Positions 16,954 to 42,665 of a DNA stretch of 64,000 nucleotides are shown in pieces. The DNA comes from Gallionellales bacterium GWA2_60_142 (GTDB taxonomy: Bacteria > Pseudomonadota > Gammaproteobacteria > Burkholderiales > Gallionellaceae). Position numbers and translations under genes: made by a program. The notes under the pieces are model-generated. The model saw only the letters and a program-made list of their open reading frames with translations, searched no databases and was not told the origin of the DNA. The stretch spans positions 18,522-82,521 of the forward strand of contig MGWR01000021.1 in the NCBI GenBank assembly GCA_001801085.1. The letters run 5' to 3'. Within the stretch, counting starts at the first letter, position 1. Each line of letters begins with the position of its first letter.

Positions 16954-18816
16954 TCAGTATCCCAGCGCTCGCGCACCCTGATAGAAGACGAAGCTGACCA
17001 GCCAGGCCAGCAGCAGCGACCAGCCGAGCGCGAACAGCGTGTAGCGCATGTCTTTCGCCTCGCTTCGCAGCGTGGCGATCGCGGACAAACAGGGGGTGTA
17101 GATCAGCGTGAACAGCATGAAGCTGTAGGCCTGTACCCAGTCCAACTGCTGCGCCAGCGCGCCGCCCAGCGCCTCGCCGGAAAGGCCGTAGATCACCGCG
17201 AGCGAGCCGATGACGATCTCCTTGGCGACGAAGCCGAACAGTAGCGCGATGGTGAGGTTGGCATCGATGCCGATGGGCGCGAATATCGGCTGCAGCGCGC
17301 CGCCCAGCATGCCGGCCAGCGTGTCGGCGCTCGCCGGTGCGGCGGAGAACGGCAGATGGGTCAGCAGCCACACCAGTACGACACCGGCGACGATGAACTT
17401 GGTGGCGCGGCGCAGGAAGTGCTGCACCTCCAGCCAGCCGCGAACCACCATCTGGCGCGGCGTGGGGAAGCGGTAGGGCGGCAGTTCCAGCACGAAGGGT
17501 TCCTGGCTGTGGAACTTGCCCCTGAACAGCAGTGCGGTCAGGATTGCCGCGGCGAAGCTGAACAAGTACAGGCTGAACAGCACCAGTGCCGCATTGGCGG
17601 GGGCGAACAGTGCGGCAGTGATGAACACGAACACCTGCAAACGCGCGGAGCACAGCGAGAACGGGATCACCAGCATCGTCAGCAGGCGTAGCGAGCGCGA
17701 GCGCATCACGCGCGTGCCCATCAGCGCGGGCACGTTGCAGCCGAAGCCCATCAGCAGCATCACGAAGCCGCGCCCGTCCAGCCCCATCCTCGCCATCAAC
17801 GCGTCCATCAGGAAGGCCGCGCGCGACAGGTAGCCGCTGTCCTCGACCATCGCCATGAACAGGAAGAACAGCACGATGATGGGCACGAAGGCCGCGACGG
17901 TCAGGTAGCCGCTGTCCTCGACCATCGCCATGAACAGGAAGAACAGCACGATGATGGGCACGAAGGCCGCGACGGTCGCGACGCCGTTGTAGACGCCGTC
18001 CAGCAGCAGGCCGGACAGCCAGGCGGGCGCGTTGGCGAATGCCGGGTCGAGCACAGTCTCGCGCAGCCAGCCCAGCAGTTCCGCGACGCCGCCCTGCAGC
18101 GGCTGGCCGAGCAGGAAGATGCCCTGAAACAGCAGATACATGATGCCGAAAAAAATCGGCAGTCCGGCCCAAGGGTGCAGCATCACGCGATCCAACTTGT
18201 CGGTGAGGTGCTCCGGCATCTGCGCCGGGACCTGCACCGCGTGTTTCAGCACGCGCGCCATCTCGGTCTCGATGTGTTCGTCCTGTTCCAGTTGCGAGCG
18301 CAATTGCTCGGCCATGCCGGGCGTGGGGTAGCGCAACGCTTTCGTGACGGCCTGCAGCGCCTCCTGGTAGCCGGTGCCGTATTTTCCGCTGAGCAGGAAG
18401 ATGGGCATGTCCAGCAGCTCGGCCATCTTTTTGACGTCTATCGTGATGCCGTATTTCTTCGCCTCGTCGGCCATGTTCAGCAGCACGACGACGTTCATGT
18501 TCAGCTGCTTCAGTTGCAGCAGCAGGCTCATCTGGCGCTCGATCTGGGTCGCGTTCAGGATCACCAGCGCGAGGTCGGGCACGTTGTCGTGCAGGAAGTG
18601 GCGCACCACCTGCTCGTCGTCGGAGAAGCCGTGCAGGTCGTAGATGCCGGGCAGGTCGATGATCTCGACCATGTCGCCGCCGAGCAGAATTTTTCCGGAG
18701 AGCAGCTCGACGGTGATGCCGGGCCAGTTGCCGACGCGGGCAGCACCCCCGGTCATACGGTTGAACAGCGTGGACTTGCCGGTGTTCGGCATGCCTAGCA
18801 GGGCGATACGCTTCAT
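16954..18816 (-). CDS. feoB: Ferrous iron transport protein B, with an internal 25-aa tandem duplication
   Basis: MKRIALLGMPNTGKSTLFNRMTGGAARVGNWPGITVE..., DLPGIYDL, LNMAD, Gate domains; TVAAFVPIIVLFFLFMAMVEDSGYL occurs twice in tandem. Upstream extension of the 762-aa ORF is a read-through in the wrong frame of feoA. Confidence 0.95.
   Translation of the reverse strand: MKRIALLGMPNTGKSTLFNRMTGGAARVGNWPGITVELLSGKILLGGDMVEIIDLPGIYDLHGFSDDEQVVRHFLHDNVPDLALVILNATQIERQMSLLLQLKQLNMNVVVLLNMADEAKKYGITIDVKKMAELLDMPIFLLSGKYGTGYQEALQAVTKALRYPTPGMAEQLRSQLEQDEHIETEMARVLKHAVQVPAQMPEHLTDKLDRVMLHPWAGLPIFFGIMYLLFQGIFLLGQPLQGGVAELLGWLRETVLDPAFANAPAWLSGLLLDGVYNGVATVAAFVPIIVLFFLFMAMVEDSGYLTVAAFVPIIVLFFLFMAMVEDSGYLSRAAFLMDALMARMGLDGRGFVMLLMGFGCNVPALMGTRVMRSRSLRLLTMLVIPFSLCSARLQVFVFITAALFAPANAALVLFSLYLFSFAAAILTALLFRGKFHSQEPFVLELPPYRFPTPRQMVVRGWLEVQHFLRRATKFIVAGVVLVWLLTHLPFSAAPASADTLAGMLGGALQPIFAPIGIDANLTIALLFGFVAKEIVIGSLAVIYGLSGEALGGALAQQLDWVQAYSFMLFTLIYTPCLSAIATLRSEAKDMRYTLFALGWSLLLAWLVSFVFYQGARALGY
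17827..17977. repeat. Perfect 2 x 75-bp direct tandem repeat inside feoB
   Basis: CAGGTAGCCGCTGTCCTCGACCATCGCCATGAACAGGAAGAACAGCACGATGATGGGCACGAAGGCCGCGACGGT at 17827-17901 and again at 17902-17976, no mismatches seen. Confidence 0.97.
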
Positions 18817-19058
18817 GTTCCGGACACTCCCTTGCATACATTGATCTTGGCCGCCTCGTTGCGGCGCAGCAGCACGTCGGTGGTGCCGACGCGCACCTGC
18901 AGCGGGCCGGAGAACGCGGCGCGGCGTATCAACTCGACCTGTTTGCCGCTGCGGAACCCCAGCGCCAGCAGCCGTTGGTGCAGCGCCTCTTCGGCGTGGA
19001 TAGCCACTATCGTGGCGGTGTCGCCCGGTTGCAGGCTGGCAAGTGTGATCGAGGACAT
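18813..19058 (-). CDS. feoA: Ferrous iron transport protein A
   Basis: MSSITLASLQPGDTATIVAIHAEEALHQRLLALGFRSGKQVELIRRAAFSGPLQVRVGTTDVLLRRNEAAKINV; overlaps feoB start. Confidence 0.94.
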   Translation of the reverse strand: MSSITLASLQPGDTATIVAIHAEEALHQRLLALGFRSGKQVELIRRAAFSGPLQVRVGTTDVLLRRNEAAKINVCKGVSGT

Positions 19059-19088
19059 GGGGTGTATCCCGTAGTGATTTGCGTAGAT

Positions 19089-19159: not shown

Positions 19160-19591
19160 ATGGATAAACCCCAACCCGATGACTTGAAAGACGCAGGCCT
19201 CAAATCCACCGTGCCGAGGCTCAATATTCTTGCCCTGTTCAAGTCCGGTCAGGAGCGCCACATGAGCGCGGAAGACGTGTACAAGCAACTGCTGGCCAAG
19301 GGCGACGACGTGGGGCTGGCTACGGTCTATCGCGTGCTGACGCAGTTCGAGCAGGCCGGGCTGCTGGTGCGCCATTATTTCGAGGGCGGCAAATCGGTGT
19401 TCGAGCTCAATCAGGGCAAGCATCACGACCACATCGTCTGTCTGCAATGCGGTCACGTCGAGGAATTCTACGATGCGGATATCGAGTCTCGTCAGGAAAA
19501 GGTCGCTACCGAACGCGGTTTTGCCGTTCACAACCACTCGCTTCACATCTATGCGGATTGCAACAAGAAGGCGTGCCCGCACAAGCACTAA
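19160..19591 (+). CDS. fur: Ferric uptake regulator
   Basis: LKDAGLKSTVPRLNILALF...HMSAEDVYKQLLAKGDDVGLATVYRVLTQFEQAGLLVRHYFEGGKSVFELNQGKHHDHIVCLQCGHVEEF. Confidence 0.96.
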   Translation: MDKPQPDDLKDAGLKSTVPRLNILALFKSGQERHMSAEDVYKQLLAKGDDVGLATVYRVLTQFEQAGLLVRHYFEGGKSVFELNQGKHHDHIVCLQCGHVEEFYDADIESRQEKVATERGFAVHNHSLHIYADCNKKACPHKH

Positions 19592-22591: not shown

Positions 22592-22804
22592 TTACTTTGC
22601 AGCAGGAGCGGCAGCGTCAGCAGCAGGAGCAGCAGCAGCTTCGGAAGCAGCAGGAGCAGCAACAGCGTCGGAAGCAGCAGCAGGAGCAGCTTCGACAACA
22701 GCGGAAGCAGCAGGAGCTTCAACAGCAGGAGCTTCAGCAGCCTTTTCGCCACAAGCGGTCAGAGCCAGAGCCAGCAGAGCAGCAACGAGAGCGGACAATT
22801 TCAT
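22592..22804 (-). CDS. Small alanine-rich lipoprotein
   Basis: MKLSALVAALLALALTACGEKAAEAPAVEAPAASAVVEAAPAAASDAVAAPAASEAAAAPAADAAAPAAK; lipobox LTAC; terminator immediately downstream. Confidence 0.75.
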   Translation of the reverse strand: MKLSALVAALLALALTACGEKAAEAPAVEAPAASAVVEAAPAAASDAVAAPAASEAAAAPAADAAAPAAK

Positions 22805-40628: not shown

Positions 40629-42665
40629 TTACAGCAACGGCACGATCATCAGTGCGACGATGTTGATGATCTTGATCAGCGGGTTCACCGCCGGGCCGGC
40701 GGTGTCCTTGTAGGGATCGCCCACGGTGTCGCCTGTCACGGCGGCCTTGTGCGCTTCCGAGCCCTTGCCGCCGTAGTTGCCTTCCTCGATGTACTTCTTC
40801 GCGTTGTCCCATGCGCCGCCGCCGGTGGTCATCGAGATCGCGACGAAGATGCCGGTGATGATCGTGCCGACCAGCACGCCGCCCAGCGCCTGAGCGCCCA
40901 GCGTCAGGCCGACGATCACCGGCACGGCGACCGGCAGCAGCGAGGGTACGATCATTTCGCGGATCGCGGCCTTGGTCAGCATGTCGACGCAGGTGCCGTA
41001 TTCCGGTTTGGCTGTGCCTTCCATGATGCCGGGGATTTCCTTGAACTGGCGGCGCACTTCGACGACCACCGAGCCCGCTGCGCGGCCGACCGCTTCCATG
41101 CCCATCGCGGCGAACAGGTAGGGCACCATGCCACCGATGAACAGGCCGATGATGACCATGTGGTTGGACAGGTCGAAGGTCAGCGCCGGGCCGCCGTGTG
41201 CACTGAGCGCATGCGTGTAATCGGCGAACAGCACCAGTGCCGCCAAGCCGGCGGAGCCGATCGCATAGCCCTTGGTCACCGCCTTGGTGGTGTTGCCGAC
41301 CGCGTCGAGAGGGTCGGTGATGTTGCGGATGCTCTCGTCCAGACCGGCCATTTCGGCGATGCCGCCGGCGTTGTCGGTGATCGGGCCGTAGGCGTCGAGT
41401 GCCACGATGATGCCGGCCATTGACAGCATCGAGGTCGCGGCGATGGCGATGCCGTACAGGCCGCCCAGTTCGAATGCGCCCCAGATCGACAGACACACCG
41501 CCAGCACCGGCGCGGCGGTGGACTTCATCGACACGCCCAGGCCCGCGATGACGTTGGTGCCGTGGCCGGTGGTGGAGGCCTGCGCGATGTGGCGCACCGG
41601 GCTGAATTCGGTGGCGGTGTAATACTCGGTGATCCAAACCATCGCCGCGGTCAGCGCGAGGCCGATCAGCGAGGCCAGATACAGGTTCATCGACGAGACC
41701 AGCATGCCGTCTATCATCACGCCGTCGCCGAGTATCCAGGTGGTCACCGGGTAGAACGCGACGATAGCCAGCACGCCGGAGACGATCAGGCCGCGATACA
41801 GCGCGTTCATGATCTTGCCGCCTTCGCGCGCCTTGACGAAGAAGGTGCCGATGATGGAGGCGATGATGGACACGCCGCCCAGCACCAGCGGATAGATCAC
41901 CGCCTCGGGCGAACCGGTGATGAGCAGACCGCCCAGCACCATGGTCGCGATGATGGTCACCGCGTAGGTCTCGAACAGGTCGGCCGCCATGCCTGCGCAG
42001 TCGCCGACGTTGTCGCCCACGTTGTCCGCGATCACCGCTGGGTTGCGCGGGTCGTCCTCGGGAATGCCGGCTTCGACCTTGCCGACCAGATCGGCGCCGA
42101 CGTCTGCGCCCTTGGTGAAGATGCCGCCGCCGAGACGGGCGAAGATGGAGATCAGCGAACCGCCGAAGGCCAGGCCGACTAGCGCATGTGTGGCTTCAGC
42201 GGTGGTGGTGCCGACCATCAGCGAGAGGAAGGCGTAATAGCCGGCCACGCCCAGCAGGCCTAGGCCGACTACCAGCATGCCGGTAATCGCGCCGCCCTTG
42301 AACGCGACATTCAGCGCGGCATTGAGTCCGTTGCTGGCAGCCTGCGCGGTGCGAATGTTGGCACGCACCGAGACGTTCATGCCGATATAGCCGGTCAGTC
42401 CGGATAGTACTGCACCGAGTATGAAACCGAGCGCCGTTTGCCAGCCCAGCGCCAGCAGGATGGCGACCAGCAGGATCGCGCCGACGATGGCGATGGTGGT
42501 GTACTGCCGGTTCAGGTAGGCCTGCGCACCTTCCTGCACGGCGGCGGCGATCTCCCGCATTCGGTCGTTGCCGGTCGGCAGCGCGAGTATCCATTTGATT
42601 GAGAATGCGCCATAGAGTATGGCGACGATGGCGCAGAACAGTGCAAATCCGAGACCAGCTGACAT
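40629..42665 (-). CDS. hppA: Membrane-bound proton-translocating pyrophosphatase
   Basis: [83 protein letters not shown]. Confidence 0.96.

Follow-up and report, generated by a model that had tools for sequence, protein, structure and literature searches.

An exact in-frame 75-bp tandem duplication in feoB of a Gallionellaceae metagenome assembly: candidate slippage event or assembly artefact

The feoAB locus and the duplicated segment

The window, that is, the whole 64,000-nucleotide stretch of contig MGWR01000021.1 analysed here, belongs to the draft metagenome assembly (G000; 2.34 Mb in 71 contigs) of the uncultured iron oxidiser Gallionellales bacterium GWA2_60_142 and carries a feoAB pair on its minus strand. 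The pair is headed by feoA (18813..19061; PF04023, 1.3e-21), which overlaps the start of feoB (16954..18816) by 4 bp, and fur (19160-19591) is divergent from both. The 620-aa product of feoB is matched by profiles for the GTPase domain (FeoB_N, PF02421, 6.4e-50, residues 3-156), in which the G1 motif GMPNTGKS is found, for the Gate domain in two stretches (PF07670, 3.1e-35), and for FeoB_C (PF07664, 1.1e-13). Its nearest PDB match is the solved GTPase domain 3w5i/3w5j, and a sequence search for a solved full-length FeoB matched GTPase domains only. The gene is the single feoB of the assembly, which is 80.5% complete and in which no second intact copy was found. Elsewhere in the window, positions 22592-22804 (minus strand) hold a 70-aa Ala/Glu-rich, lipoprotein-like ORF (MKLSALVAALLALALTACGEKAAEAP...) with a GCAGCA-type repeat.

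Within feoB, an exact self-match at period 75 (s[i]=s[i+75]) spans 76 bp, pairing 17827-17902 with 17902-17977; this run amounts to two 75-bp units and a further 1 bp of homology at the junction, in agreement with TRF. In protein order, the first copy occupies 17902..17976 (minus strand; aa 281-305, TVAAFVPIIVLFFLFMAMVEDSGYL) and the second 17827..17901 (minus strand; aa 306-330), and the two are identical, as the initial annotation had reported. Both copies sit on codon boundaries and are in frame, the sequence across their junction reads GACGGTCAGGTAG, and no ambiguous bases (Ns) occur near the junction at 17902. Despite the duplication, the conserved FeoB motifs and both Gate domains are undamaged, and the 620-aa protein is clearly an altered FeoB, with nothing that points to another family.

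Exact two-copy units were also sought across 1.82 Mb of the 2.34 Mb assembly, where the feoB duplication proved to be one of just two longer than 21 bp outside repeat-array genes; it lies far beyond chance. A gene for a large repetitive protein in the same genome (L168:10761-13200, on C55) contains extended arrays of units 18 bp and 15 bp long (AACCCGACGACTCCGGTT and relatives, TCCAAGGATGAGAAGGAC) and is broken by an N gap.

Single-copy relatives and the age of the event

The FeoB proteins used for comparison came from other Gallionellaceae, namely Gallionella, Sideroxydans, Sideroxyarcus, Ferrigenium, and related metagenome bins. Wherever feoB is complete on its contig in these relatives, it encodes 595 aa with one copy of the 75-bp unit, which agrees with the earlier statement that known FeoB proteins have a single copy here; the comparison with sister strains proposed at that time was made at the level of other species, all of them single-copy. 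The only exceptions in length are L031 and L072, whose genes are cut by contig ends, and L005, whose gene has a downstream frameshift and a single copy of the unit. In the last of these (G020:C32, 1501-3190), the frame shifts between query residues 392 and 423, reflecting either a broken gene or a sequence error. A conserved family feature was considered as an explanation for the duplication and is ruled out by the single-copy relatives. Since all of these have one copy, the duplication is confined to the lineage of the source genome, whether it arose there or was introduced by the assembler.

The nearest relative (G009; JAUXOL010000021.1) also has one copy of the unit. Its feoB differs from that of the source genome at 153/1788 nucleotides and 23 amino acids (dN 0.025, dS 0.326), and FeoB is under purifying selection. 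The absence of even synonymous differences between the copies had been taken to imply either a very recent event or an assembly error. Both readings remain live, although copy identity is a weak argument for age because the unit differs from that of the nearest relative at only 2/75 bases: had the event dated from the split between these two genomes, approximately two differences would be expected between the copies, and zero would be seen about 1 time in 7 (Poisson). A very recent origin is likely, even though copy identity dates the event poorly.

The added hydrophobic segment

The membrane domains of FeoB are predicted to contain 8-10 helices, with two Gate regions that carry conserved cysteines (PMC4847171). 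No other segment of the protein is as hydrophobic as the repeated stretch (Kyte-Doolittle 2.71), and the first Gate region departs from the family-typical number, with one hydrophobic segment more than in every relative. In the nearest relative, the loop after this stretch carries 7 K+R and is expected on the cytoplasmic side. If both copies formed helices, the orientation of this loop and of the remaining permease would be reversed, contrary to the positive-inside rule, because the 7 K+R loop would move outside; the pattern would be preserved if one copy failed to insert. The earlier proposal that an extra transmembrane helix inverts the topology therefore stands as far as the one added hydrophobic helix is concerned, and the topology break would follow only if both copies are helices. 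AlphaFold gave mean pLDDT values of 44.9 for the 620-aa form and 54.1 for the 595-aa control, both too low for the models to be used. Judged from the sequence, the duplication, if real, would probably impair FeoB, with loss or reduction of function the likeliest outcome.

Junction, twin duplication, and origin

In the single-copy form of this feoB, each end of the unit carries the 10-bp direct repeat GAAGGCCGCG in 75-bp register, 5 bp short of the junction. In the window it occurs three times at this spacing: outside the unit on the low-coordinate side (17812..17821), within the low-coordinate copy 5 bp ahead of the junction (17887..17896), and within the high-coordinate copy (17962..17971). 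The junction itself has one base in common between its two sides. An in-register match of 10 bp within 20 bp of a random breakpoint has a chance of 7e-4 at period 75 in this genome (5e-4 at period 63), and at the feoB site such a match is present in 2/80 relatives, most having 6 bp or fewer and the nearest relative 6 bp. As the in-register repeat is rare both by chance and among relatives, similarity must have guided the break, either through slippage in the cell or through overlap joining in a program.

The feoB event is not alone in this genome and has one unexpected twin. A second private exact duplication (L194:856-981, on C25 at approximately 40856-40981; period 63, run 64) is also in frame and doubles a 21-aa hydrophobic stretch, LLLWINGEAVLGILLGMLLLA. 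The protein, 377 aa long, looks VanZ-like, and the gene of the nearest relative has a single copy (1068 bases, 356 aa). As in feoB, the doubled stretch appears from its sequence to be a membrane helix. Chance alone would put both duplications in frame with a probability of 1 in 9. In approximately 1.3 Mb of sequence from relatives, exact or near-exact two-copy units longer than 30 bp were limited to two, of 44 and 40 bp, neither a multiple of three. Both junctions have the same layout, with ten matches, three mismatches, one match, one mismatch, and then a common C, which may reflect coincidence, a common mechanism, or a common algorithm.

A real, recent slippage duplication, private to one Gallionellaceae species, is somewhat the better bet as an explanation of these observations. 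A strand already carrying the copied segment would have slipped back 75 bases, with the short direct repeat GAAGGCCGCG as its guide, and the segment would then have been copied again, adding one hydrophobic helix to the first Gate region; this helix would upset membrane topology and most likely leave a weaker FeoB. As the duplication is an exact tandem repeat, the same route could remove a copy. That the duplication is real is favoured by its intact frame free of Ns, by the retained FeoB motifs and Gate domains, by the single copy in the nearest and all other relatives, and by the second private event, which is in frame at another period, as a fixed-length artefact would not be; slippage in particular is favoured by the rare in-register repeat beside the junction. 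Against this reading, the sequence comes from a fragmented metagenome assembly whose scaffold gaps are mis-sized, and in a protein under purifying selection a damaging insertion should not long remain the majority allele. Slippage would also be expected to place the crossover inside the direct repeat, whereas the junction falls 5-6 bp past the perfect 10-bp repeat, beyond mismatches that proofreading by the polymerase would be expected to remove; this holds for both duplications alike.

The strongest competitor is an assembly artefact, to which we assign a substantial probability that nevertheless falls short of even. Here, two contig ends truly overlapping by approximately 90 bp would have been joined through a false overlap of 16 bp (75% identity), leaving the true overlap in the sequence twice, and the FeoB of the organism would be the normal 595-aa protein. 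Both junctions fit a join on a 12/16 overlap with identical layout, and the copies are identical within each of the two genes. Joins in this assembly are moreover imprecise, since N gaps of 8 and 9 bases (L147:4168-4175 and L194:3668-3676) stand for approximately 147 and 162 bp in the nearest relative, understating the true sizes by some 140-150 bp. A 61-bp deletion relative to the same genome, a possible trace of a false join, lies between genes after a stop codon and is uninformative on joins. Arguing against an artefact are the absence of Ns at both duplication sites, the preservation of the reading frame by both duplications, and the lack of any period in excess (75 and 63 occur once each in 1.82 Mb). 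Multi-k assemblers, in addition, normally merge true overlaps of 79-91 bp. One variant, an artefact of fixed k-mer length, was rejected on the differing periods and the lack of an excess at 75. On balance, we lean towards a real duplication over an assembly artefact.

The remaining explanations take the duplication to be real and assign it a role or a tolerated place. The initial annotation had suggested a reversible off-switch operated by slippage, in which cells would alternate between one copy, with FeoB on, and two copies, with FeoB off or reduced, the assembly having captured the latter state. Slippage or recombination can remove exact tandem repeats, which are generally loss-prone, and the extra helix is expected to disturb topology. 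However, the two-copy state is absent from every relative (all other species), the 10-bp repeat is not family-conserved, being in register in only the 2/80 noted above, and phase-variable systems usually consist of many short units, unlike feoB. A literature search for switching duplications of this kind yielded nothing directly useful, and the neighbouring fur, offered earlier as a hint of switching, is ordinary context. Nothing seen in these sequences speaks for a regulated switch beyond its being possible, and we consider it very improbable. Slightly less probable still is the broader proposal that this lineage repeatedly doubles single membrane helices, in FeoB and the VanZ-like protein, through short in-register repeats, giving reversible low-activity forms. 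Least credible of all is a tolerated or useful insertion, in which one copy would form the normal helix, the other would lie at the membrane surface or in a hairpin, and FeoB would work: the frame and the conserved positions elsewhere are undamaged, but the constant 595 aa of the family speaks against longer-term tolerance.

If real, the slippage duplication would be a natural experiment in which an iron transporter has gained a single helix, offering a test of how a membrane protein copes with such a change and of whether an Fe(II) oxidiser manages when FeoB is less than fully active. If an artefact, it would caution that an exact in-frame duplication may look like biology when it comes from metagenome assembly.

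Compared with known systems, the 620-aa protein shares with FeoB of the Gallionellaceae type the GTPase domain, two Gate matches, FeoB_C, and an adjoining feoA, at 80-96% identity to its relatives, and differs from them in the one repeated hydrophobic helix, which makes it 25 residues longer. An error in which sequence is duplicated where scaffolds are joined has been described for IDBA-UD and CLC assemblies (PMC7111523); the source genome resembles those cases in having an exact short duplicate within a scaffolded metagenome assembly with mis-sized gaps, whereas in the described error Ns lie between the copies, and in feoB there are none and the frame is kept. With slippage duplications at short direct repeats, feoB has in common an exact unit, in frame, with an in-register repeat beside the junction, and it differs from them in that its crossover falls beyond the repeat, by 5-6 bp, where theirs falls inside it. 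The feoB duplication is either a commonplace type of event or an artefact, and in either case does not constitute a new system.
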